Part shown: positions 32,027-59,944 of the stretch, in pieces | How positions within the stretch are numbered: the stretch's first letter is position 1 | How the letters are laid out: each line of letters opens with the position of its first letter | NCBI RefSeq assembly: GCF_018881975.1 | Contig: NZ_JACVPJ010000009.1 | Location: forward strand, 1 to 64,000 | Direction: 5' to 3' | Length of the DNA: 64,000 bases | Source: Polynucleobacter sp. JS-Safj-400b-B2 | Lineage (GTDB): Bacteria; Pseudomonadota; Gammaproteobacteria; Burkholderiales; Burkholderiaceae | Made by a program: the position numbers and the translations under genes | Notes under the pieces: model-generated | The model's input: the letters and a program-made list of their open reading frames with translations, nothing else | Database searches by the model: none | Told to the model about the DNA's origin: nothing

Positions 32027-32261
32027 GTTACAACATGGCGGTGCACCAAGTCACCACCCACATTGTCTTTGCATCCTACCCTGTTATCAGGGAAATTTAC
32101 AGGGTATTTTGTAATTCTGCTCCTCATATTTCCCCAAAAAATCTGCCTAGACCTTTATTGCATATGGACACCAAGCAATTTACTCACTATCTCAGCTTAA
32201 AAGAGCAGGGAATATTTTTCGTGATATCAGGGATTGCATTTATTTGATGCAGGGATCTTTT

Positions 32262-32840
32262 GTAATGCGATATGCCAAGCTCATCACAGGACCGCATAAA
32301 TGCCTACACATCATCACGCCACTGCTCCTCATCAAAATCGACCGCTAGAAAATAGCAGGTGTCATCTTCCAAAAGAGGATAAATACCGATGGTTTTCTTA
32401 CTGGTGAGGTGCTCATGGATGACGGTATCTGATAGCGTAATTAATTCGCGCCGGTTACAGTCACCACACTTAATGCGCGGCTTATTGCAAACCCCGGCAC
32501 GCCATTCGTTGGCGCATGTTGGTGCATAACCCGAATTACCCGATTTTTTACTTTCCCACCTTAAGGAATAGACATCGGTGCGCCCGCGAAATAGTCGGCG
32601 GAACAAAGCGATCTTATCGGCGTTGGAAATACCTGCCGCAGGCTTGGCTGCTAAATGCCCCGGGATGCCGGAATCCCCCACTTCATCCGAAGCATTTAGA
32701 GTAACCGACCCATCGAAATTATTTGCTAATTGCCCATCGATTCCATGGGATTGCAGCAAAGCAATCAAACGGGCATTTTCAACCCTAAGTGATTGAATGC
32801 TCTCGATGAGCTCGGTGGGGTTGTTAGTCTGATTGGGCAT
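32262..32840 (-). pseudogene. Truncated TOTE-type archaeo-eukaryotic primase (AEP) remnant
   Basis: The reading frame from 32840 encodes an N-terminal coiled region (SIQSLRVENARLIALLQSHG), then ADKIALFRRLFRGRTDVYSL, RWESKKSGNSGYAPTCANEW, a cysteine cluster CGDCNRRELITLSDTVIHEH and LLEDDTCYFLAVDFDEEQWR. This is the N-terminal half of the primase domain of large TOTE-associated helicase-primases, including the first catalytic Asp pair (VDFD). A TAG at 32304-32306 interrupts it, yet the same frame continues AFMRSCDELGIS, the expected next segment, before similarity fades. The rest of the primase and the helicase are gone. A relic of a larger gene. Confidence 0.75.
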
Positions 32841-32923
32841 GATGGTTTGATGATCTTAGTTTGGTCAATTATTTTTATGCCTTAGTCGCAGGTGGGTTTT
32901 CATAGTGGCTTTACACCAAGAAA

Positions 32924-33301
32924 ATGATAATCACCAAACTCTGCGCCAACTGTTCCAGCACCTTTATTCCTCGCCCTCAAAGTCCCAATCAGCAATTTTG
33001 CCCGGAATCAACCTGCCAAAAAATACGGCGCAAAAGCTGGCGCCAAAAGAAAATCGCAGCCGATCCAGACTACCGCCTTAATCAATCAAGGGCGCAGCGC
33101 GCTTGGCTAGATCGAAACCCCGATTATTGGCGTAAGTATCGAAAAAATAGGGAAATAAAGGGGGATACAAAATCCTTTGGAGGGCAAATAGGTGCCAAGC
33201 AACCCCTCTCAGGTTTTTATCAAATGCGATTTATCTCCAAGAAAGAGGTTGCTAAGAGTGACGCATGGATCGTTGAAATCACCCCTATCAATGACGTTTG
33301 A
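32924..33301 (+). CDS. Zinc-ribbon-like small protein of the recombinase element
   Basis: The 125-residue protein starts with a putative zinc site, LCANCSSTFIPRPQSPNQQF, then CPESTCQKIRRKSWRQKKIA, giving a CxxC...CxxxxC pattern. It continues ADPDYRLNQSRAQRAWLDRN and PDYWRKYRKNRE, a strongly basic stretch. Proteins with this DYR-NQ-RAQ-AW pattern often sit next to a large serine recombinase, from my memory of such loci. It is likely a DNA-binding accessory factor. The C-terminal 40 residues look less conserved. Confidence 0.7.
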   Translation: MIITKLCANCSSTFIPRPQSPNQQFCPESTCQKIRRKSWRQKKIAADPDYRLNQSRAQRAWLDRNPDYWRKYRKNREIKGDTKSFGGQIGAKQPLSGFYQMRFISKKEVAKSDAWIVEITPINDV

Positions 33302-33401
33302 ATTTGCAAATGCAACGCCTGCAAAGAGATCACTTAATAGCGCTTCCCCCGCTTTTCCCTTAGCGTGCCATCTAACGACCAACATTTCACGATGATGTTT
33401 T

Positions 33402-34967
33402 ATGCAAACCGACCATTCAAAAGAAGAAGATTTATATCAGCCAGCGCTTTTTAGGGCAGCCGAATATGTTCGGATGTCCACCGAGCATCAGCAGTATTCA
33501 AGCCAGAATCAGGCAGATAAGATTCGGGAATACGCAGCGCAGCGCGGTATTGAAATTGTGCATACCTATGCCGATGAGGGTAAGAGCGGATTAAACATTG
33601 GCGGGCGTTTAGCTCTGCAGCAACTGATTAAAGATGTGGAGACTGGCGCCGCTAACTTTCAATTGGTGTTGGTATATGACGTGAGTCGTTGGGGGCGCTT
33701 CCAGGACGCAGATGAAAGTGCTTATTACGAATACATCTGCCGCCGTGCTGGAATCCAGGTGACCTATGTTGCTGAGCAGTTTGAAAACGATGGATCGCCC
33801 GTCTCCACGATCGTCAAAGGGGTCAAGCGGGCTATGGCGGGGGAATATAGCCGCGAGCTTTCCGCCAAAGTCTTTGCCGGGCAATGCCGCCTCATTGAAT
33901 TGGGTTACCGCCAGGGCGGCCCGGCCGGGTTTGGATTGCGTCGGGTTTTAATTGACCAGAATGGTTCGATCAAGAGTGAGTTAGCTCGCGGGGAACACAA
34001 AAGCCTGCAAACTGATCGAGTGATCTTGGTGCCTGGACCAGAGGGTGAAGTAGATACAGTAAATCAAATTTATAGCTGGTTCATTGAGATGGGCCTCTCA
34101 GAGACTGAAATTGCTGATCGTCTGAATCAAAGTGGTGTTCGCACAGATCTGGACCGCAACTGGACGCGCTCTACAGTACGCGAAATTCTGACCAACGAAA
34201 AGTATATTGGCAACAATGTGTACAACCGTATTTCATTCAAGCTAAAAAAGTATCGGATTACCAATCAGGCTGATATGTGGATTAAGAAGGAAGGTGCGTT
34301 TGAAGCTATTGTTCCGCCCGAAACCTTCTATGTGGCCCAAGGAATTATCAGGGCAAGAGCTCATCGGTTTAGTAATGAAGAGTTAATTGAGAAACTGCGT
34401 AATCTTTATCAGCACAAAGGCTTCTTATCAGGAATGATCATCGATGAGGCCGAAGGAATGCCCTCAGCCGCTGCCTATATTCAGCGTTTTGGCAGCCTCA
34501 TTCGGGCGTATGAAACAGTAGGATTTACGCCAGACCGAGATTATCGGTTTTTGGAGGTAAACAAGTTCTTGCGCAAACTTCACCCTGAAATCGTAGGCAG
34601 TACTGAGGCTGCCATTCTCGATTTAGGCGGAACGGTCGAACGAGATCCTGCAACTGACCTCATCAATGTCAATCGTGAATTTACGATTTCAATTGTGATT
34701 GCTAGGTGCCAAACCCCCGAGAGCGGTCGCCACCGCTGGAAAATCCGATTTGATACGAGTTTGGCTCCCGATATTACGATTGCTGTTCGCTTGGATCGTA
34801 CCAATCAAAGACCGCTCGATTATTACCTTCTTCCCTACCTTGATTTTGGATCTTCGCGCGTGAGCTTGGCTGAGCACAATGGGGTTGAGTTTGAGAGTTA
34901 TCGCTTTGATGACCTTCACTATTTATATGGCATGGCTGAACGTGCTCGCATTAAACGAGCCGCATAA
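33402..34967 (+). CDS. Large serine recombinase
   Basis: A 521-residue site-specific recombinase. The resolvase/invertase domain has the catalytic serine in YVRMSTEHQQYSSQNQ at about residue 26, then YADEGKSGLNIGGR, VLVYDVSRWGRFQDADES and STIVKGVKRAMAGEYSRELS. A Recombinase domain follows (IYSWFIEMGLSETEIADRLN and TVREILTNEKYIGNNVYNR). The C-terminal 150 residues are specific to this branch. It should catalyse integration or excision of the element. The two ParB-like genes follow at once, and a zinc-ribbon gene precedes it, all on the plus strand. Confidence 0.93.
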   Translation: MQTDHSKEEDLYQPALFRAAEYVRMSTEHQQYSSQNQADKIREYAAQRGIEIVHTYADEGKSGLNIGGRLALQQLIKDVETGAANFQLVLVYDVSRWGRFQDADESAYYEYICRRAGIQVTYVAEQFENDGSPVSTIVKGVKRAMAGEYSRELSAKVFAGQCRLIELGYRQGGPAGFGLRRVLIDQNGSIKSELARGEHKSLQTDRVILVPGPEGEVDTVNQIYSWFIEMGLSETEIADRLNQSGVRTDLDRNWTRSTVREILTNEKYIGNNVYNRISFKLKKYRITNQADMWIKKEGAFEAIVPPETFYVAQGIIRARAHRFSNEELIEKLRNLYQHKGFLSGMIIDEAEGMPSAAAYIQRFGSLIRAYETVGFTPDRDYRFLEVNKFLRKLHPEIVGSTEAAILDLGGTVERDPATDLINVNREFTISIVIARCQTPESGRHRWKIRFDTSLAPDITIAVRLDRTNQRPLDYYLLPYLDFGSSRVSLAEHNGVEFESYRFDDLHYLYGMAERARIKRAA

Positions 34968-34985
34968 AACCAGAAGAGACCCTAT

Positions 34986-35888
34986 ATGAGTAAAACCTAC
35001 CCAACGAGTAATCTCCAAATCATTGCGATTGATCAGATTGAGGTACTTAACCCACGGGATCGCAATGCCCGCACTTTTGATGACATCGTTGAGAACATCA
35101 AAAATATTGGCCTTAAAAAGCCAATTACCGTAACCCCGCGCAAAAATGCTGATGGCAGCGGTAAGTTCTTGCTCATCTGCGGTGAAGGTAGACTCAAAGC
35201 ATTTAAGTCTTTGGGTGAGAAGACCATTCCAGCGGTCGTAGTCGATGTGAGTGATGAGGATGCTTTCATCATGAGTTTGGCTGAGAACATCGCCCGCCGG
35301 CAGGCGCGCACCATAGAGCTTTTGGCTGGTATCGAGCAATTGCGTGATCAAGGTTACGACAAGATAGAGATTGCTCAAAAGACGGGCCTGAGCCGGGAAT
35401 ACATTCAAGGGATTTTGCAATTATTAAAAAATGGGGAAGAGCGCTTACTCATTGCGGTGGAAAGTGGCCGCATTCCATTAAATGCAGCACTGACAATTTG
35501 TGGGGCGGGTGGTAGTGACAAAGATGTTCAATCAGCGCTTCAAGAAGCTTATGAAAACGGTAAGTTACGGGGCAACCATCTGATTTATGCACGCAGACTC
35601 ATTGAGAAACGACGCTCTTTAGGGCGAGGCATGACTAAAACCGGACCCCGCAAAGCGCCCGGGCTCACCTCCTCTAGTTTGGTGAGGGCTTATCAAAATG
35701 AGGTGGGACGTCAAAAGCTAATGGTAAAAAAAGCGGAGCTCGTGCATCAACGGCTTTTATTTGTTACCCAGGCATTGCGCCAACTTCTTGGCAATGAAAA
35801 TTTCACTAACTTATTAAGGGCGGAGAGCTTAGATACCTTGCCGCAATATCTTGCCGAGCGCGTCTGGGAAGGGCCCCACACGTTATGA
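34986..35888 (+). CDS. ParB N-terminal domain protein 1 (RepB-like)
   Basis: The 300-residue product has a ParB/Srx-like N-terminal domain: IAIDQIEVLNPRDRNARTFD, IGLKKPITVTPRKNADG, LICGEGRLKAFKSLGEKTIP and MSLAENIARRQARTIELLAG. An HTH follows, YDKIEIAQKTGLSREYIQGI. The GEGRLKA box is the variant of the CTP-binding GERRxxA motif. There is no ParA ATPase gene nearby, so classical partitioning is unlikely. It overlaps the next gene by 4 bases, so the two are co-translated and may form a heteromer. Confidence 0.85.
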   Translation: MSKTYPTSNLQIIAIDQIEVLNPRDRNARTFDDIVENIKNIGLKKPITVTPRKNADGSGKFLLICGEGRLKAFKSLGEKTIPAVVVDVSDEDAFIMSLAENIARRQARTIELLAGIEQLRDQGYDKIEIAQKTGLSREYIQGILQLLKNGEERLLIAVESGRIPLNAALTICGAGGSDKDVQSALQEAYENGKLRGNHLIYARRLIEKRRSLGRGMTKTGPRKAPGLTSSSLVRAYQNEVGRQKLMVKKAELVHQRLLFVTQALRQLLGNENFTNLLRAESLDTLPQYLAERVWEGPHTL

Positions 35889-36766
35889 CTGACTCTCATT
35901 TGGGGTTTATTCCAGAGCCGATTACTGTACCGCTTGATAAATTACTCCCCTCACACCAAGTTCCCGAGCGCCTTGCGCACTCCAAAAAGTTCAAACAAAT
36001 CCTTTCTTCCATTAATGCGGTTGGTTTAATTGAGCCACTAACGATCACAAAGCTCAATAAAGCTAGCGGCGTGCATTTATTGCTCGATGGCCATCTACGA
36101 ATGCTCGCTCTTCAAGATCTCGGGTTTACTGATGCGCCCTGTTTGGTCGCCAAGGATGATGAACGCTACACCTATAACAATCGGATAAATAGACTCTCTA
36201 CCATTCAAGAGCATTACATGATCCGGCGAGCCGTCGAGCGCGGTGTAACTGCGGAACGGCTTGCCAAATCCCTAAATATTGATATTGAGCACGTTGCCAA
36301 GAAAATAAAGCTACTAGATGGAATCTGCGCCGAAGCTATTGGCCTGCTAAAAGATAGAACCTTTTCAGCTAGCTTGAGCCCCATATTACGAAAACTCAAA
36401 CCCACTAGGCAAATTGAATGCGTGGAGTTGATGATAGCAAGCAATAATCTGACCGTGCCCTATGCTCAGGCACTTTTAGCAGCCACGCCTACCAATATGT
36501 TGATTCGTGAAACCATTGCCAAGAAGATCAAAGGCGTTAGCGCAGAGCAAATGATTAAGATGGAGCACGAAATGGCCAATCTGGAGGGGCAATATAAAAT
36601 TATTGAACAGTCTTATGGTCAAGATGTTTTGAATCTTGTATTGGCTAAAGGCTACCTGGCAAAGCTACTTGAAAACGAAACGGTGATACGTTATTTGTCT
36701 GCGAACCATCCGGACTTCTTAAGAGAGTTTTCCAGCATTACAGAGGCTACCGGTTTAGATCAGTAA
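35885..36766 (+). CDS. ParB-like protein 2 with RepB C-terminal type domain
   Basis: The 293-residue product has a weaker ParB-like N-terminal domain (PSHQVPERLAHSKKFKQILS, NAVGLIEPLTITKLNKA, LLLDGHLRMLALQDLGF). The usual GERR box is replaced by DGHLRMLA. A helix-turn-helix follows, AERLAKSLNIDIEHVAKKIK, then a helical C-terminal domain like that of plasmid RepB. It starts inside the stop of the previous gene (ATGA). The pair of unequal ParB-like proteins after a serine recombinase is a recurring mobile cassette, by my recollection. The role is unknown. Confidence 0.8.
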   Translation: MTDSHLGFIPEPITVPLDKLLPSHQVPERLAHSKKFKQILSSINAVGLIEPLTITKLNKASGVHLLLDGHLRMLALQDLGFTDAPCLVAKDDERYTYNNRINRLSTIQEHYMIRRAVERGVTAERLAKSLNIDIEHVAKKIKLLDGICAEAIGLLKDRTFSASLSPILRKLKPTRQIECVELMIASNNLTVPYAQALLAATPTNMLIRETIAKKIKGVSAEQMIKMEHEMANLEGQYKIIEQSYGQDVLNLVLAKGYLAKLLENETVIRYLSANHPDFLREFSSITEATGLDQ

Positions 36767-37062
36767 TCTTGATGTGGTAAGCCCAAAAAATTGAGCGCTT
36801 ACTTATTGTCAAAACATAATGATTTATTTATGAAGGAACTTTATTAAATAAATGATGAAATTACTCTAGCAGATTTTCTTGAAAAATTTGATAACTTTAG
36901 AATCGCCCTGCTTGAACCTATCTAACCATATCATTACTTCAAAACACAATTTATTAGTATCGCCCAAAGCGCTGGGGATTAATCACATAGGAAAACACGG
37001 TGGTGCCAGATGAAATTGATTTGCGTTCTATAAGATGGTTATTGGATACATCCACAAATCTC
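36767..37062. other. Gene-free 296-base gap with degraded coding look
   Basis: No complete gene is visible. The plus strand reads NDEITLADFLEKFDNFRIAL with LEPI before a stop near 36924, and later ENTVVPDEIDLRSIRWLLDT, both without a usable start. These look like pieces of decayed genes at the right edge of the recombinase cassette. AT content rises here. No clear terminator or promoter could be identified. Confidence 0.35.
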
Positions 37063-37359
37063 TTACAAGTGCAACGGCCGCACTTCCCTTTCGATCTTCT
37101 TGGCCACCGCCTTTTGGGCCACTTTCAAGTCATAGGCTTGTTGTAGATTTAGCCATGATTGTGGATCTTCGCCAAAGTACCGCGCTAAGCGCAAAGCCGT
37201 ATCCGGCGTAACGCCCCTAACCTCTCTGGCCACATCATTAATTCGCGCTGGTGTGACGTGTAAGGCCCTAGCCAATGCGTTAGCACTCATGCCTAAAGGC
37301 ATGAGATAGTCTTCTCGCAAGATCTCTCCCGGGTGAATTGCTCTCATTGCATTTTTCAT
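37063..37359 (-). CDS. higA: HigA-family addiction-module antitoxin
   Basis: The 98-residue product is a Xre-type HTH antitoxin: RAIHPGEILREDYLMPLGMS, ANALARALHVTPARINDVAR and GVTPDTALRLARYFGEDPQS, WLNLQQAYDLKVAQ. This is the HigA pattern in full. It is intact. The gene upstream on the same strand, 10 bases away, is a decayed higB toxin. The antitoxin may persist as a stand-alone repressor or as protection against a related toxin elsewhere. Confidence 0.92.
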   Translation of the reverse strand: MKNAMRAIHPGEILREDYLMPLGMSANALARALHVTPARINDVAREVRGVTPDTALRLARYFGEDPQSWLNLQQAYDLKVAQKAVAKKIEREVRPLHL

Positions 37360-37369
37360 TCCACTCCCC

Positions 37370-37654
37370 TTAGTGGTAATCCACTATCTCTACATTGTCT
37401 GGGCCTAAGTTGGTCCAGGCAAAACAAATCTGCCATTGCACATTAATGCGAATACTGTATTGGCTGGCTCTACTACCCCTTAAACTCTCCAGACAATTGC
37501 CTGGGGGTGATCTTAAAAACTCCAAGGTCGCAGCACTACCCAAGTTGCTGCAACTTACGCTCTGCTGCCGACTTAATCGCACTAAATTGCTTAGTTTTCC
37601 CGGTGGTAAAAAGGGTTTCTGTGTGAGCGCACTAGAACGATGGGATGGAGTCAT
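37370..37654 (-). pseudogene. higB: Decayed HigB-family toxin
   Basis: The C-terminal half reads LGSAATLEFLRSPPGNCLES, LRGSRASQYSIRINVQWQIC, FAWTNLGPDNVEIVDYH, a standard HigB (RelE fold) ending. The N-terminal half in the same frame is not HigB-like. In the neighbouring frame it reads SF-stop-CAHTETLFTTGKTKQFSA then IKSAAERKLQQLG, exactly the missing part. So a one-base insertion in the GGG at 37539-37541, plus a TAG at 37632-37634, separate the two halves. The full open frame of 94 codons is therefore a chimera of frames and unlikely to be toxic. Confidence 0.75.
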
Positions 37655-37779
37655 TACATTATTTCATATCATTTATCGGTAAAAAATATGTTTTTGGGCT
37701 CACAGGCACCTGACGGGAAGCTTGCCCCACCCAAATTGACAGGTATTGCATTATTGAGGGCATGCGGTATATTTACCCC

Positions 37780-38313
37780 ATGAGAATTACCACCAAATGC
37801 AAGATTGCAACAGATGCCCTGCTTGAAATCGCCGCCCATACGCTAAAAGGGTATGCCATCTCACTGCCCATAGTCAGCAAAAGACTAGCCGTCTCTCACT
37901 CGTATCTTGAACTCATTTTCGCCAGCCTAAAGGCTACCGGACTGATTCACAGTCATAAAGGCCCCGGTGGCGGTTATTCGTTGGCCAAAAAGCCTGAGGC
38001 GATTTCCATCAAAGATATCGTTGATGCCACTGGTGATTCCCAACCTTTGGAGGGCGGCCCGAGCGCGCAATTATGGGTCAATTTAGACGCGCATATGCAA
38101 AATCATATGACGCAAATTACACTGAGCCACCTCTTGTTCAAGACGGCTGTTCAGATTGAGCCCAGCCTTGCGCATCTTCATCTCAGACTAGAAAAAACAC
38201 CAAAATCCAAGGTGGCCAAAGCATCGGTAGAAAAGCAGTCCAATATGACTCGGAAACCTACAGGACCAAACTCCGTATTTAGCTTTGGCAAATACTTATT
38301 GCATAAGCAATAG
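37780..38313 (+). CDS. Rrf2-family transcriptional regulator
   Basis: The 177-residue product has the Rrf2 winged helix-turn-helix: MRITTKCKIATDALLEIAAH, ISLPIVSKRLAVSHSYLELI, FASLKATGLIHSHKGPGGGY, SLAKKPEAISIKDIVDATGD. The three cysteines that bind the Fe-S cluster in IscR and NsrR are absent, so it probably does not sense iron-sulfur status that way. I start at ATG 37780; an ATG at 37762 adds six residues. The C-terminal tail is basic and unlike the family. No clear target operon lies beside it. Confidence 0.85.
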   Translation: MRITTKCKIATDALLEIAAHTLKGYAISLPIVSKRLAVSHSYLELIFASLKATGLIHSHKGPGGGYSLAKKPEAISIKDIVDATGDSQPLEGGPSAQLWVNLDAHMQNHMTQITLSHLLFKTAVQIEPSLAHLHLRLEKTPKSKVAKASVEKQSNMTRKPTGPNSVFSFGKYLLHKQ

Positions 38314-38330
38314 CAATAGCAACCCAAGAA

Positions 38331-38618
38331 TTAATGAATGGCCGAACTTCCCTGTGTTGTGGAGATCATTCTGTCAACTAACACTTGATCCCACAGGCGA
38401 TCGAGCAGCGCTTTAGCTTGACTCTTTTCACTCTCGGAGAGTTCCATACCTATTAAGGTCGATTTAATCATCACTGCGTATGCCATCATCACTTCTGCAG
38501 TACTAGAACCCCTGACATGGGGCAATATTTCCTGCAAGGCATCAATGACAATTTCGCCCACCTTCTTAGCATCAATAGTTTGTTCAAGATCATCTAAATC
38601 TATGGAATCTGCTGTCAT
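38331..38618 (-). CDS. Hypothetical acidic helical protein
   Basis: A 95-residue product with predicted helices: TIDAKKVGEIVIDALQEILP, TAEVMMAYAVMIKSTLIGME, LSESEKSQAKALLDRLWDQV. It has no signal peptide or cysteine and is acidic. I do not recognise the family. It is convergent with the Rrf2 gene (17-base gap) and followed upstream by a tRNA cluster. The codon use looks like neighbouring core genes, which supports a real gene. Confidence 0.6.
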   Translation of the reverse strand: MTADSIDLDDLEQTIDAKKVGEIVIDALQEILPHVRGSSTAEVMMAYAVMIKSTLIGMELSESEKSQAKALLDRLWDQVLVDRMISTTQGSSAIH

Positions 38619-38647
38619 ATGCTCTACGGATAATGGTTAATATTAAG

Positions 38648-38723
38648 TGGTGCCGCCCAGAAGAATCGAACTTCCGACCTACGCGTTACGAGTGCGTTGC
38701 TCTACCAACTGAGCTACAACGGC
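38648..38723 (-). tRNA. tRNA-Thr (anticodon CGT)
   Basis: A 76-base cloverleaf with encoded CCA. The D-arm is TAGCTCAGTTGGTAGAG, the anticodon loop CTCGTAA gives CGT, and the T-loop is TTCGATT. Two weak points are visible: acceptor position G7 faces G66, and A31 faces C39 at the base of the anticodon loop. The acceptor also has two G-U pairs. It may be a slowly diverging minor tRNA reading ACG codons. Confidence 0.92.
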
Positions 38724-38734
38724 GTTTATGCAAC

Positions 38735-38808
38735 TGGAGCGGGCGATGGGAATCGAACCCACGTCATTAGCTTGGGAAGCTAAAGTTCTACCATTGAACT
38801 ACACCCGC
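38735..38808 (-). tRNA. tRNA-Gly (anticodon CCC)
   Basis: A 74-base cloverleaf with encoded CCA. Acceptor GCGGGTG pairs with CGCCCGC (one G-U). The anticodon stem TTAGC/GCTAA closes loop TTCCCAA with anticodon CCC, which reads GGG. It is 11 bases from the preceding tRNA-Thr gene, so the cluster of three is likely co-transcribed. Confidence 0.96.
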
Positions 38809-38810
38809 CT

Positions 38811-38900
38811 TGGCGGAAACGGAGGGATTCGAACCCTCGATACTTTTACAAATATGCCGGTTTAGTAGACCGGTGCCTTCAGCCGCTCGGCCACGTTTCC
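38811..38900 (-). tRNA. tRNA-Ser (anticodon ACT)
   Basis: A 90-base class II tRNA with encoded CCA. The acceptor GGAAACG pairs with CGTTTCC. The anticodon stem CCGGT/ACCGG is perfect and closes the loop CTACTAA, giving anticodon ACT. Nearly all bacteria use GCT for the AGY serine codons, so position 34 is A where G is expected. The D-arm GTGGCCGAGCGGCTGAAGG and the long variable arm are otherwise normal. It is first in the three-tRNA cluster on the minus strand. Confidence 0.9.
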
Positions 38901-38977
38901 TTGCTCGAATTATAGATCTCAATAATTAACGAGCGCTATCTGTTGCATCTTGGTCATTTGCATAAGGAGGCTTGAGT

Positions 38978-39233: not shown

Positions 39234-39593
39234 CTATGGCTTGATTTGGCTAATTTGATTCTTCTCGCCGACCAAAACTATCGTTGGGCGATGGTTTTCA
39301 AGATCGGCCTGATCAATCTGACCATAAGTACAAATAATGAGATGGTCGCCAACATGCGCCCTTCTCGCCGCTGCGCCATTTAACGAAATAATTCCTGAGC
39401 CCTTTGGCGCCTTAATAATGTAGGTAGAAAAGCGTTCGCCATTGTTAATGTTGTAAAGCTCAATTTTCTCAAACTCGCACATACCAGCAGCATCAAGTAA
39501 ATCTTCGTCAATACCGCAGGAGCCCTCGTAATGCAGGTCTGCCTCGGTCACTGTGACACGATGTAGTTTTGCTAAAAGCATGATTCGATTCAA
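39234..39593 (-). CDS. panD: Aspartate 1-decarboxylase
   Basis: PanD makes beta-alanine from aspartate for pantothenate and CoA. It is made as a proenzyme that cleaves itself before serine to form a pyruvoyl cofactor. The 119-residue product has the cleavage site at G24-S25 within ADLHYEGSCGIDEDLLDAAG. The core continues CEFEKIELYNINNGERFSTY and SGIISLNGAAARRAHVGDHL, IICTYGQ. All family marks are present and the length is normal. Confidence 0.96.
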   Translation of the reverse strand: MNRIMLLAKLHRVTVTEADLHYEGSCGIDEDLLDAAGMCEFEKIELYNINNGERFSTYIIKAPKGSGIISLNGAAARRAHVGDHLIICTYGQIDQADLENHRPTIVLVGEKNQISQIKP

Positions 39594-39670
39594 TGTATTC
39601 CCCCGTATGTTCTGATATTGGCCCAGATTTTATAGTTATAAATCTAGGGCTCGGCAATTAATTAAAGTCG

Positions 39671-40897
39671 CTACATTTCCCATTCGGTGGGCATCATCAT
39701 TTGCGCCACCATCTGTGCAGTGACCGCCGATAAAGTCCAGCCTAAATGGCCGTGACCTGTGTTGTAAAACACATTGGGCTTTGATCCTGAGCCTACTTTA
39801 GGCATGAGATTGGGCATCATGGGCCGCAATCCTGCCCAAGGCACCACAGATCTAGTGCCAACATTCGGAAAGCATCGCTCAACCCAGTCAATTAGGGGTT
39901 TAATGCGGTCAGCCCTAATATCTTTGTTAAAACCATTAAATTCTGCGGTACCTGCCACTCGAAAGCGATCAATCCCCAGACGACTAGTAACGAGCTTAGT
40001 CTCATCATCCAAAAGACTCACTGTTGGTGCTCCAGCCTGGCTTTGCACATCGATGAGATTGACTGTAATTGAATATCCTTTGACCGGGTATATATTGACA
40101 GAATCGCCAAGTTGGTCGGCCAGCTGCCTACTAGCGACGCCAGCACAAATCACCACCTTGTCAAAACTGGCCACATGAGAGCGCCCCGCCTGATCTAAAG
40201 TAATGTGAACTAGTTTGCCGTCTGAAGTGATTTTTTCTACCGATTGCTCATAAAGTGTTTTAACGCCAAGCTTTTCAATGGCAAGCGATAGACCATGGGT
40301 AAATTTATGTATATCGCCTGTCGAGTCGCTTTCGGTAAAGTAGCCGCCGTAATAAGTACCAGCTAAGGTGGGTTCTATGGCACGCATCTCATCTGGCGAG
40401 ATGGCTCTACGCTCAAGACCACCTTTGGCCAATAATTTGGAGACTTTGCCCGCATGGGTAAAGCTCGCTTTATCACGGTAGATGTGCAAAATGCCCTTTT
40501 GTTTTAAATCAAAATCAATGCCCTCATCTTGTGCCCAGGAAAATAAGTACTCCCTGGCAGCAATAGCCATCTTGGCCGTTTCAATGGTATTTTTTTCGTA
40601 ATGAGGGATGCTCGCAATAAACTCTCCAAACCAAGACAGCTTGTGCCAAGTGGGCGTTGGATTAATGAGTAGTGGCGCATCATTTTTGAGCATCCACTTC
40701 ATTCCTTTGATTAGAGTAGACCAATGCGTCCACACCTCGGCGTTCGATGCGGAAAGCTGTCCGCCATTGGCAAATGAAGTCTCCATGCCAGCGTAACGAT
40801 GACGCTCAATCACCGTTACATTAAATCCTTGTTTAGCTAAAGCGTAGGCCGTCGTAATGCCGGTGATGCCGCCACCGATAACTGCAATGGTTTTCAT
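39671..40897 (-). CDS. dadA: D-amino acid dehydrogenase / glycine oxidase-like flavoenzyme (DadA family)
   Basis: DadA-type enzymes oxidise amino acids to keto acids and ammonia with FAD. The 408-residue product starts MKTIAVIGGGITGITTAYAL, a FAD-binding Rossmann motif, then AGMETSFANGGQLSASNAEV, typical of DadA, and the C-terminal GHLGWTLSAVTAQMVAQMM. An earlier in-frame start at 40918 is possible, but ATG 40897 has AGGA 8 bases upstream. A tandem glycine riboswitch lies in its leader, so the enzyme is probably induced by glycine and may use glycine or feed from it. That is inference; DadA normally prefers D-alanine and other D-amino acids. Confidence 0.88.
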   Translation of the reverse strand: MKTIAVIGGGITGITTAYALAKQGFNVTVIERHRYAGMETSFANGGQLSASNAEVWTHWSTLIKGMKWMLKNDAPLLINPTPTWHKLSWFGEFIASIPHYEKNTIETAKMAIAAREYLFSWAQDEGIDFDLKQKGILHIYRDKASFTHAGKVSKLLAKGGLERRAISPDEMRAIEPTLAGTYYGGYFTESDSTGDIHKFTHGLSLAIEKLGVKTLYEQSVEKITSDGKLVHITLDQAGRSHVASFDKVVICAGVASRQLADQLGDSVNIYPVKGYSITVNLIDVQSQAGAPTVSLLDDETKLVTSRLGIDRFRVAGTAEFNGFNKDIRADRIKPLIDWVERCFPNVGTRSVVPWAGLRPMMPNLMPKVGSGSKPNVFYNTGHGHLGWTLSAVTAQMVAQMMMPTEWEM

Positions 40898-40967
40898 ACA
40901 AGATCCTAAAGACGTCAAAAGGGTTAGGCTATCTAGCTAACAAGCGAGATAAGCCCCCTCTGTCTTG

Positions 40968-41170
40968 GACCTGAGAGATTCACGCACGCCAATGATGGCA
41001 ATCCGCTTGCTCCTTCGGTATATTTGGCTGACGAAAAAGGCCAATAACTCTTCAGAGTGATAATACGCAACATCGGTTCATTTGCCTGAGAGTTTCCGGG
41101 GCTGTTGCTCCTTCGGCGTTGTCGGTAGAAATGCAATTACTACCAATCAATCTCTCCCGATGCTACGCAA
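40968..41170 (-). promoter_or_regulatory. Tandem glycine riboswitch upstream of dadA
   Basis: On the minus strand there are two aptamer-like copies. The first (about 41168 to 41083) reads CGGGAGAGATT, GCCGAAGGAGCAA and ACTCTCAGGC. The second (about 41075 to 40968) has ACCGAAGGAGCAAGC and ATCTCTCAGGT. These are the conserved core boxes of the gcvT-motif glycine aptamer, in tandem. A leader of about 70 bases separates the second aptamer from the dadA ATG. In most bacteria this riboswitch controls glycine cleavage genes. Confidence 0.92.
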
Positions 41171-41189
41171 AAGATCTTAACCGATTTTT

Positions 41190-41561
41190 TTACACCCCGA
41201 TAGATTGGGGTGCAAGGTCAGATAATGGTTTTAAATCCACAGCCATGCGTAGCGCATTGCATTTGGGATTGACAATCCCATGCCCATCGTGGCAATTAAA
41301 TTCTCGGCAAGGGCTGGGCCGGTTTTCGTAAATGGAGCAGCGATAACCCATTTGGGGCCAATATTTCAATGCAATACAAGGATGCCTACCCTGCTCTGTG
41401 CCTTTCATGCAAACCAGGTGTGGGCTAATTGACGTTACTAGCTCTGGCGGCACCGTGCCGTAGCCATTGCCGCTCACCTGCCCATGATAAAACGTGACCC
41501 GAAAATGCTGACAGCATTGAGCGCATTCGAGGCATGGGTTTGTTAAGGTGCTTGACTTCAT
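41190..41561 (-). CDS. YkgJ-family cysteine-cluster protein
   Basis: The 123-residue product has the zinc/iron-type cluster pattern: NPCLECAQCCQHFRVTFYHG, HLVCMKGTEQGRHPCIALKY, YRCSIYENRPSPCREFNCHD. This spacing of cysteines matches the YkgJ/CxxCxxCC family. The N-terminal start MKSSTLTNPC at 41561 fits the family; the open frame extends 23 codons further. Function unknown. It lies between htpG and the glycine riboswitch, same strand as both. Confidence 0.82.
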   Translation of the reverse strand: MKSSTLTNPCLECAQCCQHFRVTFYHGQVSGNGYGTVPPELVTSISPHLVCMKGTEQGRHPCIALKYWPQMGYRCSIYENRPSPCREFNCHDGHGIVNPKCNALRMAVDLKPLSDLAPQSIGV

Positions 41562-41687
41562 CAATATAGATACCGGCTGAGCATTAGAGGTACTAATCCA
41601 ATGCTCAGCCAATGTACAGCTAATGCGCAATTAAAAAAGCAATGGGCTCTTGACGGTCAATTACATGATTAATTTTAGCCATCCCAA

Positions 41688-43589
41688 TTAATTTAAGAGT
41701 AGCTGATTCATGCGCTTCACAAAGCTAGCTGGATCATTTAACTGGCCACCTTCCGCTAGTAAGGCTTGATCAAATAAGAGATTCGTCCAATCATCAAATT
41801 GCTTATCATCACTTTTGAGCTTGGATAGTAAAGGATGCTCAGGATTAATCTCCAGGATAGGCTTCATATCAGGAGCATTTTGACCGGCGGCTTTGAGCAT
41901 ACGTAGCAAGTTTCCAGACAGTTCATTTTCATCCGCAATCAAACAGGCTGGGGAATCGGTTAGACGGAATGTCACCCGCACATCTTTAGCCTTATCTTCC
42001 AAGACTTTTTTCATGCGCTCAACTAAGTCTTTGAATTGCTTTTCAGTTTCCTCGTGCTCTTTCTTTTCTTTTTCATCGCTCAGGCTTCCCAAATCCAAGC
42101 CACCCTTAGCAACTGAGGCTAATTGCTTGCCATCAAACTCAATCATGAAGGAAAGCATCCACTCATCAACACGGTCAGATAACAAGAGGACTTCAACGCC
42201 TTTCTTGCGGAAAATCTCTAAATGCGGACTGTTTTTAGCTGCGTTGAAAGTTTCACCCGTGACATAGTAAATTCTATCTTGGCCTTCTTTCATACGCGAG
42301 ACATATTCAGCCAAAGATACTGTCTGCTCAGCCGAATCAGTATGGGTGCTGGCAAAACGAAGGAGCTTGAGAATACGTTCTTGATTTGCCTGATCTTCGC
42401 CAACGCCCTCTTTGAGCACTTGACCAAATTGCGTCCAGAACGTGCGATATTTTTCTTTCTTAGCCTCATCTTCATTATTGGCAAGTTCTTCCAGCATGCT
42501 CAGCACTCGCTTGGTAGAGCTTTCACGAATAACCTTAATATCACGAGACTCTTGCAAGATTTCACGGGAAACATTTAGCGGCAAGTCGACCGAGTCAATT
42601 ACACCAGTGACAAAGCGTAAATACATCGGCATGAGCTTTTCAGCGTCATCCATAATAAAAATGCGTTTAACATACAGCTTGATGCCGCCACGCTTATTGC
42701 GATCCCACAAATCAAACGGGGCTTTGCTCGGCACAAAGAGTAACTGGGTAAATTCACTTCTACCCTCTACTCGATTTAATGAATAGCAAAGCGGGTTTTC
42801 ATAATCATGCGATAGGTGCTTATAAAACTCGTTGTATTGCTCTTCGGTAACATCTGATTTAGTACGAGTCCATAAAGCCGAGGATTGATTAATGCTCTCA
42901 AACTCATCTATTTTCACAATTTCATTTTTATTCTCATCCCAATCTTCTTTTTGCATCTGGATAGGCAAAGAGACATGGTCTGAGTACTTGCGAATAATCG
43001 ATGTCAATTTGTAGCTATTGAGGAAATCATCCTCGCCTTCGCGCAAATGCAATGTTATTGAGGTGCCACGCTGTGGGCGGTCGATCGTTTCGATCGTAAA
43101 TTCGCCTGAACCATCCGACTCCCAACGCACGCCATCAGAAGCAGGCAAGCCTGCACGACGAGTCTCAACGGTAATGCGGTCAGCAACAATAAAGCCAGAG
43201 TAAAATCCTACGCCAAACTGGCCAATGAGGGCTGCATCTTTTTGCTGGTCTCCAGATAGTTTGGTAAAGAACTCTTTAGTGCCGGAACGGGCAATCGTTC
43301 CCAAGTTGTTAATCGCCTCTTCTCGGCTCATACCAATTCCATTATCCGAAATGGTTAGAGTTCTGGCAGCTTTATCAAATTCGACTTTGATCTTGAGCTC
43401 AGAGTCATCGCCATACCAATCTGGGTGGGCAAGGCCTTCAAAACGCAATTTATCAGCAGCATCAGAAGCGTTTGAGATGAGCTCACGCAGGAAAATTTCC
43501 TTATTAGAATACAAGGAGTGGATCATCAACTGCAAAAGCTGCTTTACTTCCGCCTGAAATCCAAGAGTTTGTTTAGTAGCAACGGTCAT
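41688..43589 (-). CDS. htpG: Hsp90 chaperone HtpG
   Basis: HtpG is the bacterial Hsp90, an ATP-driven dimeric chaperone. The 633-residue protein has the N-terminal GHKL ATPase with [36 protein letters not shown] and [17 protein letters not shown], and the middle domain with [15 protein letters not shown] and NVSREIL. Length equals that of the family. A consensus heat-shock promoter precedes it. The defence island begins just beyond, so htpG marks its boundary on this side. Confidence 0.97.
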
Positions 43590-48805: not shown

Positions 48806-50902
48806 TTACTCCTCACTTTGATCAGTTGCATTTTTTGGTTCTATCGCCGAGATTTGCTGCCAATCGTCAGTAACAACCTTCCAATCAACGTTGCGCTCGA
48901 CCTGCTCGCCTTGGCTATTTTTACCCGACCATACATCCCAGAAATCAGGGTCATTAGACTTTGGTCGATGATGCTCAGGTAGCGCGTTCATTTGAACAAG
49001 TACCGGCAGCTCCGATGCCCAGCCAAGGAGGATGGCGTGTCGGGAAGGCAGCGAGGGCAAATCGCGCAACAAACCACGTAAGTTGTCTGGCACAAGCTTG
49101 TGAACAAGTTCTTGGTCTCGGTCATTGCTGATGCGATGCAGTAGATAGCTGTTGCATTGCGAAAGAACGGTAGGCGATAACTCGCTTGGGCGCTGCGAGG
49201 ACAGCACGAGGCCCAGTCCAAACTTGCGACCCTCGCGGGCAATTTTTTCGAACACCTGGCAACAGATGGCAGCCGAGTTCTGGTTCTCCGCATCGTCGTG
49301 GTAACGCTTGATGAAGGTGTGCGCCTCTTCCATCACCAGCACGGTAGGCAAGGTCTTGCCATGCTGTAGCTTGCGATAACGCTGCAGTGCCTCTAGCGTC
49401 ATGCGGGCGATCACTGCCGTGATAATGTGCACCACCTCGGCGGGCACCAGCGAGAGGTCGATGACGGTGACCGAACCGTTCGATGCATTGTTATTACCAA
49501 TGTAGTTGCACAGCCAGTCGTCCAGTGTGAGATTCTGGGTGGTACCCGATACGATCTTCATGCGGCTGTCGGACAGTAGTGTGCGAATGCGCATCTGCAT
49601 GGTTTCAACGTACTCGGAGACTCCGAGCAACTCCGCAGTGGCTTCGACGCTGCGGAGAAGCTGGTCGCCGGTAAACGAACGTGGCACATCGGCGTCAATG
49701 GGCAGGATGTCGGTGTCACTGCCGCCGAAAATGGAGTGTGCGGACTGGATCAACGACAAAAGATTGTCAACTTCGCCAAGCGTAAACTCGTAGGTCGGAT
49801 ATTGGCTGGAGCGAGCATTGACCAAACTGGTGAGTTCGTCTCGTACAGCGCTGAGCGATGCTTTCTCGGCGCCTGAAAATGAGTCCTGAACAGCTAAACC
49901 CTCCCGCCACTTCTTCAACTTTTCAAAGAAGCCTTTGGGCTGGGGAAACCTACCCCAAGGACTACCGGCATTACGCTCTAGTTGCAATATGCTGACCAAG
50001 GTGCGTAGATAGCGCCGCATTTCATGGCTGGGCGTGACTGTGGCGCCGAATACGCCGTCACGGACTGATCGCAGCGCCTGTACCAAGGTTGGTCGCTGGG
50101 TCTTTGCACTGGCCTGAGTAAAGGCACTCCATTCGGCGCTGTTCCAGAACCACAGCGGGATTTGCAGTTGTTCCACGCCTTCACTGGGCTCGACGGCGAA
50201 TACCCGCACCTTGCTCATGTCGCTAAAAGTGTTAGCATATTCACCATTGGGGTCAAGCACGATGAATCGAGCATTGGGATCTGCACCACCACGAGCCTTA
50301 CGAGCCTCATCCATCGACCAACGGATCAGGCCAGCGACCGAGCAGGATTTTCCACTGCCAGTGTTCCCTAGAATAGCAAGATGGCGGCCAAACAGGCGAT
50401 CTGGATCGATCTTTACTTCGGCATTGGCAGCCAGCGGGCTCGTACCGATAAGTACATGGCGGTTTTCGCCAGACTCGACGATGGCATGCAATTGGTTTTG
50501 TGTGGGTAGAAGTACCGAATCGCCAACAGTCGGGTAACTTTCGACGCCTCGCCGGAAGCGATAGACATCTTTGCTTTCATATGCAAGTACCCCTAGCGGG
50601 TTCAGACTCATCTTGCGCAGGGGATAAGGTAAATCAACCAAGCCGAAGTCTTGCATGCCCTTGCGCTTGGGATATTGCGAGCGCTCAATGGTGATCCACT
50701 CAACCTGAGCGACCAGATGTCCTTCGTCACTGGGAATCAGCACATAACCATTGATACGAGGGAAAGGGCGCGGTGTGCCGGTATTGAGCGCCACACCATC
50801 GGGAGCCTCAATGTCGAGCAGGACCTTGATTTCATCAGGTGAGACAAAGTCAATGGCACCAATGCGAAGTGAGTCGGCATAGGCCAGAGGTGAGAAGCTC
50901 AT
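48806..50902 (-). CDS. HerA-like ATPase (DUF87), partner of SIR2
   Basis: HerA-type hexameric ATPases move DNA or regulate an associated effector. The 698-residue product has an N-terminal HAS-barrel-like region, Walker A in [20 protein letters not shown] at about 177-196, [20 protein letters not shown], and Walker B in [20 protein letters not shown] at about 520. It also has [20 protein letters not shown] and [20 protein letters not shown], typical of HerA/FtsK-like proteins. It overlaps the SIR2 stop by 4 bases, the arrangement of known SIR2-HerA defence pairs. Confidence 0.92.
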
Positions 50903-52329
50903 ATGAGGTCACTCCCATCTAAAGCCTTTGTGTCCGTATCTGATCTGTTGATAGTTTGAGGCTCTACCCCCATTCGCTGCTTAAGCAGTTCACTCATACG
51001 GAAGGTTGTTTTGTCTATGGCTGGTTTGGGCAGATAATGTTCGGTCAAGGTAGTCAGATCTGCTAGCGCAGGGCCTATCAGCAGGCTAATCTGGGAGGGC
51101 CTCCCAAGCTCTTGATAATTCTGCATGATGCGGCCCAGTGGGTCGTCATAGGAGATAACGACCAAGTGGGTTGAGGGGATGGTGAGCATGTCGCGAATAA
51201 CCCGATTAATGTGCTCATCGCCAAAGCTGTAACCGTAGGTAACCAAGGTGCTATTCGGACGGCAAACTGCAGCAGCAAAGTCGCGGAACAGCTCGACGTA
51301 GGGGTAGTCAGCAGTTTCCCTATCTTTGGCGGAATTAGGATAGATCATCAGCTCGTGGGCAGACAATCCACTAAGGCCTGGTGCTTGCAAATATGGTTCA
51401 ACGCTGACGGCCCCAAACGGCAATCCGATCCGGCGAATGTCTTTACCTGTCTGCACCCAGTCCACTGAGCCATGCAGCTTGGTGTAACGGGCTACACCTT
51501 CTAGATAGCGCGGTTCGCCACGGATGCCGGGTGGGTTGTAGTGCATGTCTAAATCTAGGCGTGAAGATCGAAAAATCGGCATCAGCTTGCCAATGAAACG
51601 ATCCAGCAAATGCAGTCCTGCCAACTCGGCCCCTGCCTCGATCAGTCGGTCGTAGTTAGTGGTAAAAATGTTAAGCCGATCGCGCACGCCAGTACGACTG
51701 GCAAAACTCATCAGGAATGTGACGAGAATATTGAAGGCCTGCTCGCGCTGGTCATGGTGTGCGGTGGCAATTCCTGTTTCGCTCTTTAAAATTGATTGAG
51801 CAAAGGTTTGCATGCCATTATTAAGTTCCGAGCGCAAGGCATCCGCCTCAATTTTATTTTGCAGAATCTCAAAACCACGGAGCAGTTCGTTGGCAACCCG
51901 AAGTTGATCTTCTAAGTTGCCCTTCTTACGCCCAGCCGCTTCAGACGCCATTTCGGCAGCATGATTGATTTGGGTTTGATTGTTACTTAACGTTAAGGCC
52001 CCCATGCCGGCAGCGCTTTTTTGCGCAGCTAAGCAATGCACCGCATGGGTCAGCCCCGATCCGGCAAGCAGTGACAGATGCTCAGATTGAAACAACGACG
52101 TAAGCCAAGGCTCAATACGCTGACGGAGATTTTTATAACTTAACTCATCTGCGCCTAGCCAAGATGGTTTATTATTTCCCTCCAGCTTATACTTCCCGTC
52201 GCTTTCAGAGAACCATACCGGGCTAGCATCATCGCGAACCTTAAGAATATTTTGGCATTCAGGTTTCTTACCTTCAGATGCAACTTTATTAGCAAGAACT
52301 GGTCCAGGGTCAGAAATTTTATTTGTCAT
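50899..52329 (-). CDS. SIR2-family NADase, SIR2-HerA defence system
   Basis: SIR2-domain effectors in defence systems degrade NAD+ during phage infection, causing growth arrest. The 476-residue protein has the N-terminal NAD-binding strand SLLAGSGLTHAVHCLAAQKS near 86-105. The catalytic-type histidine is in TKLHGSVDW near 284. The C-terminal part has TLVTYGYSFGDEHINRVIRD near 360 and HLVVISYDDP. There is no HST-like zinc module. It precedes the HerA gene with a 4-base overlap, and a short DUF262 remnant lies 22 bases upstream. The pair matches known SIR2-HerA anti-phage loci. Confidence 0.92.
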   Translation of the reverse strand: MTNKISDPGPVLANKVASEGKKPECQNILKVRDDASPVWFSESDGKYKLEGNNKPSWLGADELSYKNLRQRIEPWLTSLFQSEHLSLLAGSGLTHAVHCLAAQKSAAGMGALTLSNNQTQINHAAEMASEAAGRKKGNLEDQLRVANELLRGFEILQNKIEADALRSELNNGMQTFAQSILKSETGIATAHHDQREQAFNILVTFLMSFASRTGVRDRLNIFTTNYDRLIEAGAELAGLHLLDRFIGKLMPIFRSSRLDLDMHYNPPGIRGEPRYLEGVARYTKLHGSVDWVQTGKDIRRIGLPFGAVSVEPYLQAPGLSGLSAHELMIYPNSAKDRETADYPYVELFRDFAAAVCRPNSTLVTYGYSFGDEHINRVIRDMLTIPSTHLVVISYDDPLGRIMQNYQELGRPSQISLLIGPALADLTTLTEHYLPKPAIDKTTFRMSELLKQRMGVEPQTINRSDTDTKALDGSDLI

Positions 52330-55600: not shown

Positions 55601-55719
55601 GGAAACAGGGCCGCTTCCGGGTCGTAGGTGTTGGGATCACCTTTTTCGTAGCCACCGCCGCTGATCAGTGCGTGCTCAATGTCATTTTCAAAGTCGATTT
55701 CTTTGTGCATAACTCTCAC
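52678..55719 (-). CDS. hsdR: Type I restriction enzyme subunit R
   Basis: HsdR is the ATP-dependent translocase and nuclease of type I restriction systems. The 1013-residue protein has an N-terminal nuclease domain with PDVVLAVNGLPVATLELKNP (D...ELK near 150), Walker A LIQHSAGSGKSNSIAWLAHR near 306, a DEAH box VDEAHSSQSG near 425, motif III-like FTATPKFKTLAVF and QTLSRLNRTTRGKTDTFVLD in motif VI. A helical C-terminal HsdM-contact region follows. It is intact. Base composition is GC-richer than the core genes, a sign of transfer. hsdS and hsdM precede it in the operon with one extra gene between. Confidence 0.95.
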   Translation of the reverse strand: MRVMHKEIDFENDIEHALISGGGYEKGDPNTYDPEAALFPADVVAFVQKTQPKIWTRLTQLDAAKAPAMLLDSLVKELAAKGALAILREGFKCVGKTVRLAYFAPNTGLDPASTERYYDNRLTIVRQVNTKSGAIPDVVLAVNGLPVATLELKNPMSATRWNVENAKYQYRFERDSKELLFTFKQRCLVHFAVDTELVFMTTKLEGKDTLFLPFNLGHDHGAGNPPAAGDVRTSYLWNKALTRDSLMDILARFIHLDVEEKTVVTEKGIKRHRKETMIFPRYHQLDAVRALTDHAQAHGSGHNYLIQHSAGSGKSNSIAWLAHRLSSLHDANNEKIFHSVVVITDRRVLDQQLQDTIFQFEHKLGVVQKIDENTQQLAKALADGVPIIISTIQKFPFITQAIRTMEANGKGVAISTAGKRFAVIVDEAHSSQSGETAMELRKILNKDGIESAIAEQLLDMDDDALSEEAKKELLREQLKRAKQPNLSFFAFTATPKFKTLAVFNEPGPDGKAPFHHYSMRQAIEEGFIHDVLAHYTCYKRYYKLIQKVEADPEVPRRKAARALARFVEFHDYEIAQKVEVIVEHFRTHTRHKIGGRAKAMVVTGSREHAVRYKLGFDKYIKDKGYTDVKSLVAFSGEITLKEFVDKKFTEVNMNNGIKESELPEKFNTEEYQVLLVAEKYQTGFDQPLLHSMYVDKRLSGIHAVQTLSRLNRTTRGKTDTFVLDFVNEPADIYTAFKPYYETTDKGDDTDPQQLNTLAHTLAGWKIYTEEEVSAWCEIWFRNRLNPTGGEHKKLNGLLDLAIERFKKLGEEDQNLFKGQLVSFRNLYSFVSQIVPYQDSDHEKLYTYARFLLTKLPRTTDNRAVQIDDEVELKYYRLQKISEGAIDLKVGEADALEGPTDVGTGQADEDVQLSTLVGKLNERFGTEFTPADQLFFDQVRETAVANEQLRQAVMANSIENFEPVFNKQLENLFIERMDGNEEIFVRLMNDEAFRNVAASHLMRAVYQQVKAAEN

Positions 55720-55745
55720 CCTTTAAATAAGTCGGATTCGGCCCG

Positions 55746-56339: not shown

Positions 56340-56355
56340 TTTGGATAGTCTCCAT

Positions 56356-59909: not shown

Positions 59910-59944
59910 TGGCGATTCCTGAATGCTGTTGAGTTTGTTGACTG

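Follow-up and report, generated by a model that had tools for sequence, protein, structure and literature searches.

What does a large serine recombinase do beside two overlapping ParB-like genes when no ParA can be found near them? The question is raised by a stretch of Polynucleobacter sp. JS-Safj-400b-B2 (assembly GCF_018881975.1, contig NZ_JACVPJ010000009.1): the window, as it is called here, consists of the first 64,000 nucleotides of a 107-kb contig (G000:C37:1-64000). G, C and L numbers are our own labels for genomes, contigs and loci. Genes for a zinc-ribbon-like protein (ZF), a large serine recombinase (REC) and two ParB/RepB-like proteins (PB1 and PB2) lie on one strand of the window, next to a decayed primase gene on the other:

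32262-32840 (open reading frame 32304-32840), minus strand: AEP-TOTE primase relic (PF22548, E = 4e-42)
32924-33301, plus strand: ZF, 125 amino acids, with a CxxC..CxxxxC motif; sub-threshold zf-CGNR match only
33402-34967, plus strand: REC, 521 amino acids (PF00239, E = 3e-22; PF07508, E = 1e-21)
34986-35888, plus strand: PB1, 300 amino acids, with intact motifs for binding of cytidine triphosphate (CTP) (PF07506, E = 3e-19; PF02195, E = 3e-11)
35885-36766, plus strand: PB2, 293 amino acids, with the hydrolysis glutamates replaced (GHxR, YN) (PF07506, E = 2e-42)

The set ZF-REC-PB1-PB2 is almost certainly a conserved module of mobile DNA that occurs in islands, prophage-like regions and plasmids. 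With modest confidence we favor an explanation in which it is an integration module, with REC as the integrase and the ParB pair as a clamp that would regulate REC.

In the window ZF, REC, PB1 and PB2 are open frames of about the length of their relatives with the conserved residues retained, and the PB1 and PB2 genes overlap by 4 bases. The four cysteines of ZF are conserved in 89-90 of 90 aligned copies. NCBIfam names the proteins of the set at domain level or below threshold only, and PADLOC yields a PrimPol match for the primase relic, weak matches for PB1 and PB2 and none for REC. All parts of the arrangement described in an initial annotation of this DNA, with zinc-ribbon, recombinase and overlapping ParB genes in one direction and a decayed TOTE primase in the opposite one, were thus found; the set of serine recombinase and ParB pair is real and has all its parts.

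The suggestion that these genes occur together in other genomes was borne out as well. Within the genus a strong PB2 relative was present in one of 101 genomes, that of the window itself, while 12 others gave weak matches of 22-27% identity; since the same gene order is nevertheless found in other genera, the set cannot be put down to chance. Elsewhere PB2 relatives were found in 107 plasmid records and one phage record. We examined 167 loci (7 plasmid, 1 phage, 79 genome and 80 viral), the genome loci being the best 79 of at least 535 confirmed candidates and the viral contigs 80 of 83 candidates; the retained loci being best matches, these numbers hold for close relatives of the set and not for ParB proteins at large. 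The gene-order test needs at least 2.7 kb upstream of PB2, so that 34 loci were left out and 133 remained. REC, PB1 and PB2 follow each other in the same order and on the same strand in 131 of these 133 (genome 76/77, viral 47/48, plasmid 7/7, phage 1/1), the exceptions being L122, with a partial PB1 and no REC, and L221. ZF lies upstream of REC in 74/77 genome, 12/48 viral, 3/7 plasmid and 0/1 phage loci. Two ParA-like queries from the genome of the window detected no ParA in the window or at any of the 167 loci, whose flanks reach up to 9 kb and are shorter in many, in agreement with the initial annotation; none of them shows the ParA or RepA gene beside ParB that would mark a ParABS or RepABC system.

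Many pairs of loci with about 87-97% DNA identity have blocks in common within otherwise unlike surroundings. The common block begins shortly before ZF, at about -3,077 relative to the first base of PB2, or further left in other pairs, and its right edge lies about 1,100 or 2,340 bases past the PB2 start. The longer block carries an extra gene of about 456 codons after PB2 (30 loci), the single tested copy of which gave PHROG helicase/primase matches. Past this gene, between about +2,250 and +2,340 as counted from the start of PB2, L080-L087, L095 and L099-L103 contain TTTCGCTnATTTCGC-type repeats, and several of them also a CAAGTGCTTG palindrome; this region may be a replication origin or a ParB site. 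In the database records examined the PB genes carry a plasmid partition annotation, and no description of the set was found in the open-access PubMed Central literature searched.

REC consists of a Resolvase catalytic domain (PF00239) followed by a Recombinase domain (PF07508), the layout of a large serine recombinase. S26 and other N-terminal residues are invariant in 36 sequences, and we take them to be catalytic. No zinc-ribbon family match was obtained for REC at E values up to 0.1; residues 324-375 give a sub-threshold HNH_repeat match. The best matches of a REC model built from a 36-sequence alignment, with a mean predicted local distance difference test (pLDDT) score of 77.6, are serine integrase complexes, at low global template modeling (TM) scores. 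Five copies of the set are bounded, four of them by tRNA-like or other direct repeats:

L123, 4,950 bases: minimal element, with a 46-base copy (93%) of the tRNA-Val 3′ half at 5150-5195 and the intact tRNA-Val at 10100-10174
L072, 7.1 kb: 57-base repeat
L076, 4.7 kb: repeats of 51 and 27 bases
L118, 9.4 kb: 46-base tRNA-Arg-like repeat
L095, 8.6 kb: six-base repeat at tRNA-Ala, the weaker case

Between the repeats of L123 the plausible genes are a 108-amino-acid open reading frame, ZF, REC, PB1 and PB2, and its right flank is matched in G205 and G211 from the precise 3′ end of the tRNA onward. In five prophage-like loci (L172, L190, L193, L196 and L206), by impression alphaproteobacterial, tRNA-Met or the 3′ half of it stands some 2 kb ahead of REC. 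REC was the sole recombinase detected in these ten stretches as fetched: the screen used ten queries, of which eight were tyrosine-integrase-like and gave no match, while REC and a second serine recombinase of the Polynucleobacter contig (REC2, see below) gave serine recombinase matches to REC only. The genomes of L123, L118 and L076 contain no REC2 homologue at E values up to 1e-25. On the strength of the bounded copies and of the tRNA-Met prophage-like loci with REC as the only recombinase detected, we read the set as an integration module, and REC probably integrates the minimal elements and the prophage-like loci. Other copies have less distinct ends. L161, L132, L142, L074 and L071 have tRNA genes near the set and no clear far repeat. 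Many genome copies have TGGTGGTG left ends, with T-arm-like sequence in L067, L099 and L138, for which a tmRNA 3′ end is a tentative reading that a search of Rfam did not confirm. Across the 79 genome loci the pattern TGG[TC]GGTG[TGC]A occurs 24 times in 382,668 bases left of the set (23 loci) and more rarely, 8 times in 437,212 bases, to its right (7 loci).

Several observations weigh against REC as the integrase. The left flank of L123 is not conserved in relatives, and its empty site is thus half shown. Compared with the native tRNA of G205, the displaced repeat of L123 is one base off and the intact tRNA two; these differences do not tell which half of the repeat derives from the element, and the displaced repeat as native 3′ end was dropped as a candidate, one against two mismatches being too little. 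A relative of L123 has additional repeat copies near the same tRNA-Val, which implies that other islands use this repeat too. The boundary of L095 depends on its six-base repeat, L118 and L072 lie within tandem arrays in which a neighbor could have mobilized them, and a tyrosine-integrase-like open reading frame is situated immediately outside L118. The five prophage-like loci were followed at the tRNA-Met side. Furthermore, the 46-base repeats of L123 and L118 span the tRNA 3′ half up to the anticodon, which is a size typical of tyrosine integrases. Because repeats of 46 bases are also left by these enzymes, REC as integrase is likely and not proven. Likewise, excision and integration driven by REC would be likely events, as read from the anatomy of the junctions.

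In the window itself, the set belongs to a larger element, the ends of which are as follows:

32036-32041, unstranded: left TGGCGG (the tRNA-Ser 3′ end is CCGCCA), left junction of a 42.4-kb island, from flank alignments with G148, G133 and G090
32042-32261, unstranded: left arm of the island, which after TGGCGG shows TGCACCAAGTCA and then four CAGGGA-type repeats (32088, 32206, 32228 and 32250); similar arms in Nitrosospira L144, G043 L250 and G140 L243
61683-63589, plus strand: start of the right-end module, a ParB-like/DNA methylase open reading frame followed by a DUF5681-like one (named by reading), common to the Nitrosospira island

Beyond the window, up to C37:74492, follow a terminase-like open reading frame, DUF3489, DUF2924, the second serine recombinase and tRNA-Ser. 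G148, G133 and G090 have the DNA left of the island (up to 32041) joined directly to that from C37:74402 on, the two overlapping in the six bases TGGCGG, whereas 42,360 bases are inserted between these flanks in the genome of the window, ending at tRNA-Ser(GGA). With its far repeat and empty site the 42.4-kb island is a tRNA-targeted integrative element.

The position of REC2 speaks against a role of REC in moving this island. REC2, a serine recombinase of 606 amino acids, stands beside tRNA-Ser together with the DUF3489 and DUF2924 proteins and is the recombinase nearest to the tRNA. Its relatives (E up to 1e-60) occupy 13 places in 10 of 151 genomes of the genus, and in 5 of the 13, the window's included, tRNA-Ser lies about 160 bases from the REC2 homologue. 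In the 3.26 Mb of fetched sequence, some of it overlapping, the left-arm pattern (AGGGAAATTTACAGGG after TGGCGG) has four independent occurrences, namely in the window, Nitrosospira, G043 and G140; in G043 and G140 the arm adjoins REC2. G043 is without the set according to the PB2 search, which did not include G140. Because REC2 homologues adjoin tRNA-Ser and the left arm stands beside REC2 in the set-less G043, REC2 is most likely the island's own integrase, and REC was set aside for this role.

It is therefore a serious though not the favored possibility that the set in the window is a passive passenger of the REC2 island, with no part in its movement. Besides the tRNA end with REC2, DUF3489 and DUF2924, this would account for the REC2 islands of G043 that lack the set and for the truncated primase next to it in the window; against it stand the four open genes, about as long as their relatives and with conserved residues retained, and the occurrence of the set at the same place in another island. 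In the window the set is placed just inside the left arm of the island. An island of the same plan and different cargo, also two-ended and at tRNA-Ser, is found in Nitrosospira briensis (L144, contig positions 97864-142550); there the left arm is directly followed by ZF-REC-PB1-PB2, then by cargo, right-end open reading frames and tRNA-Ser(GGA); the right-end frames match those of the Polynucleobacter island (ParB-methylase-like, DUF5681-like, terminase-like, DUF3489, DUF2924 and REC2). A REC2 homologue is present in 8 of 18 genomes or records with the REC-PB1-PB2 triad and without a match in 10, two of which are viral fragments; REC2 closes the same island as the set in L144 and lies about 57 kb away on the same contig in G194 (L132). 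The set-less G043 and the 10 triad records lacking REC2 suggest that set and REC2 can each stand alone. We propose that the set in the window is a nested or co-opted second module, two islands being too few to choose between these. For the 5-kb set as a discrete insertion (32042-37057) no convincing boundary repeat was found, and the sole trace of a right edge, near 37058-37070, is that G071 and G019 match 37058-38914. In G073 the junction holds another element with an open reading frame that reads as a tyrosine integrase (L060, G073:C1:1077000-1093000); this element also contains a 789-amino-acid primase-like open reading frame.

If the set is an integration module, what would the ParB pair contribute? 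We compared 136 PB1 and 162 PB2 sequences (135 and 161 from the 167 loci plus those of the window; too-short or stop-bearing sequences were dropped) after alignment to solved ParB proteins. In the G[E/Q]GR motif of PB1 the glycine is present in 136/136 and the arginine in 135/136, with glutamate (97/136) or glutamine (39/136) at the first position, and each of the residues E, N, A and R of the ENxAR motif in 136/136. PB2 retains the glycine, arginine and asparagine of the CTP motifs in 162/162 sequences, but a histidine (GHxR) occupies the position of the first glutamate in 151/162, which is never glutamate, and a tyrosine (YN) replaces the second one in 154/162. PB1 thus has the GExR and ENxxR signature of a CTPase clamp and PB2 does not. 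In Bacillus subtilis ParB, according to excerpts of the report (PMC8494293), the variants E78Q and E111Q close but do not hydrolyze CTP, histidine or alanine at these positions was similar in first tests, and G77S and R80A impair CTP binding. PB2 lacks both hydrolysis glutamates of B. subtilis ParB and therefore looks like a natural hydrolysis-dead ParB. The glutamine at the first PB1 position in 39/136 sequences means that hydrolysis may be lost in some PB1 copies too. By sequence both proteins match Spo0J, Noc and KorB chains, and a PB2 model (34 sequences, mean pLDDT 76.5) matches the folds of ParB, Noc and KorB, at global TM-scores that are likewise low. The idea of a CTP switch, already put forward in the initial annotation, fits these motifs, with PB1 intact and PB2 hydrolysis-dead-like.

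A candidate binding site precedes REC. The 90 ZF-bearing loci including the window contain 146 forward copies of TGCAAA[AG]A within 500 bases upstream of REC, compared to 0-2 copies per 250-base bin away from this zone, and a stricter repeat pattern is present in 78 of the 90 loci. The repeats are direct, non-palindromic and in a single orientation, unlike the usual parS, which is palindromic. A non-palindromic site would suit a reader made of two different proteins. In the window looser copies were found, at about 33249 (within ZF, diverged) and at 33305 and 33320 (in the gap between ZF and REC):

33249-33340, plus strand: direct repeats resembling TGCAAAGAnnnGACG, from the alignment

From these features we derive the following mechanism. 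ZF-REC-PB1-PB2 would act as an integration and excision module, several carrier elements of which sit at the 3′ ends of tRNA genes. REC would cut and join element and target, as the anatomy suggests. PB1 and PB2, proteins of the ParB fold without a ParA nearby, are inferred to work as a pair in which PB1 would bind and split CTP and PB2 would bind it without splitting. The pair would load as a clamp on the direct repeats that closely precede REC, which are not palindromic, and would control transcription of REC, perhaps also synapsis or the direction of recombination. Regulation of REC by the ParB pair is about an even bet, leaning slightly to the negative side; that it works through an asymmetric CTP clamp is a tentative and rather less probable proposal. 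In its most specific form, in which a heteromeric clamp of PB1 and dead PB2 at the asymmetric repeat licenses or directs a ribbonless integrase, with ZF maybe replacing the ribbon in trans, CTP-gated recombination would be a speculative and improbable variant. What tells against the regulatory part is that the window and L071 do not show the stricter repeat pattern, that conservation of the repeats is partly due to the ZF coding sequence and to shared descent and that any of the four proteins could be the one that binds there; moreover, heterodimer formation, CTP binding and clamp loading we infer from sequence only.

Instead of controlling recombination the ParB pair could stabilize an excised circle or plasmid in a ParA-less, centromere-like form of partition, with REC as integrase or multimer resolvase and the two functions merely traveling together. 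We consider this improbable. PB1 and PB2 do match the RepB plasmid partition family PF07506, PB2 relatives do occur in the 107 plasmid records, and the gene after PB2 in 30 loci, helicase/primase-like in the one copy tested, is followed in several loci by repeat-rich DNA that is a possible origin; but no ParA was found with the two queries in the window or the 167 loci, the direct repeats upstream of REC differ from the usual parS, and the gene order with REC is strict. To this extent the initial annotation, which had suggested a role in a mobile element and not in partitioning, holds: the set travels with mobile DNA, and a ParA was not found.

Contrary to that annotation, the primase is not part of the recurring set. 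Read through one in-frame TAG, the match of the relic reaches 32262 and takes in positions 1-118 of the 230 in the model, so it is not the intact AEP-TOTE primase of a TOTE conflict system. A tblastn search of the 167 loci (E up to 1e-4) detected no relative of the fragment. A PF22548 search covering the triad genomes of 40 of the 79 genome loci gave matches in 2/40, in one case on a different contig than the set and in the other at least about 77 kb away from it, if the contig is shared; within the genus the family occurs in 1/151 genomes, that of the window. The TOTE primase was therefore rejected as a member of the recurring set. A full primase-helicase, which that annotation had proposed to look for in intact copies, was seen in none; 30 loci carry the different gene of about 456 codons after PB2. 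That the ParB pair is the DNA-sensing CTP switch of a conflict (defense) element with a TOTE primase-helicase as effector is accordingly very improbable: the relic adjoins the set and the island carries defense-type cargo (HerA-like, SIR2-like), but relatives of the relic are missing from the 167 loci, PF22548 is rare in the genus and never beside the set in the triad genomes searched, no effector gene is evident in the minimal element L123, and defense-type genes are variable neighbors outside the set. Recurrent neighbors elsewhere include Fic-, AbiE- and WYL-type genes, named by reading of the sequences.

The cargo of the island shows further features. A HerA-like ATPase beside a SIR2-like protein, both on the minus strand (48806-52329), looks like a defense pair, and the open reading frames at 52678-60844 read as a type I restriction-modification operon that includes a WYL-type regulator. 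Genes for three tRNAs (Thr, Gly and Ser, the last assigned the anticodon ACT) lie within the island at 38648-38900, on a 1.9-kb segment that is 85% identical to G019 and in part to G071. Open reading frames at 39234-43589 read as panD, dadA and htpG; part of the dadA-like one is 88% identical to G000:C28:179307-179602. In the Nitrosospira island (L144/L260, G236:C10:135910-138838) adjacent open reading frames resemble those of a TIR protein and a short Argonaute. At 61683-63589 of the window and at 587-2038 of L064, ParB-like/methylase, DUF5681-like and terminase open reading frames are arranged as in phage ParB-Tls loci, and a phage may package the island.

The ParB pair may have a part in deciding when the carrier DNA moves. 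If it does control the integrase, CTP switches of the ParB type would serve DNA integration and not only segregation, and clamp turnover could readily be studied on a naturally occurring combination of a hydrolyzing and a non-hydrolyzing ParB. This would also bring in a further group of serine integrases, acting at tRNA sites, with potential as genome tools.

How does the set compare to known systems? REC resembles integrases of the SPbeta, phiC31 and Bxb1 type in its Resolvase and Recombinase domains and in its model matches; it differs in its C-terminal region, with the sub-threshold HNH_repeat and no zinc-ribbon family match, and a separate zinc-ribbon protein is encoded upstream. PB1 and PB2 are akin to the CTPase clamps ParB, Noc and KorB by sequence, PB2 also by fold and PB1 by its intact motifs, whereas they are tandem paralogues with a RepB-type C-terminal region, linked to a recombinase and with no ParA found, and PB2 is without both catalytic glutamates. 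The phage ParB-Tls locus, described in the accessible part of PMC6536676 as a ParB-methylase beside a terminase, shares the row of ParB-like/methylase, DUF5681-like and terminase-like genes with the right end of the island; this likeness concerns the REC2 end and not ZF-REC-PB1-PB2. phiPam-6 of Paracoccus aminophilus is, according to excerpts of PMC3925955, inducible and encodes a serine recombinase, with 17-base direct repeats at tRNA-Met. In this it is similar to our tRNA-Met prophage-like loci and by analogy may carry the same module; the single PB2 relative in the phage collection is another record. In the ssrA islands of Dehalococcoides, as far as the excerpted text of PMC3146451 describes them, a DsiB/DsiA module lies at one end, at the tmRNA 3′ end and with direct repeats. 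Its gene row, DsiB-DsiA-RecF-ParB-Mom, is not that of our set: one ParB-domain protein of 210 amino acids is accompanied by a second, small serine recombinase and by RecF-, Mom- and RNA-polymerase-like genes, whereas the set combines two RepB-type ParBs with a zinc-ribbon protein, and no second recombinase was detected in its minimal elements. The two nevertheless have in common a conserved module that pairs a large serine recombinase with ParB-domain protein at one end of islands sited at the 3′ terminus of an RNA gene, and from what the excerpts give the Dehalococcoides module is the nearest published arrangement that we found.

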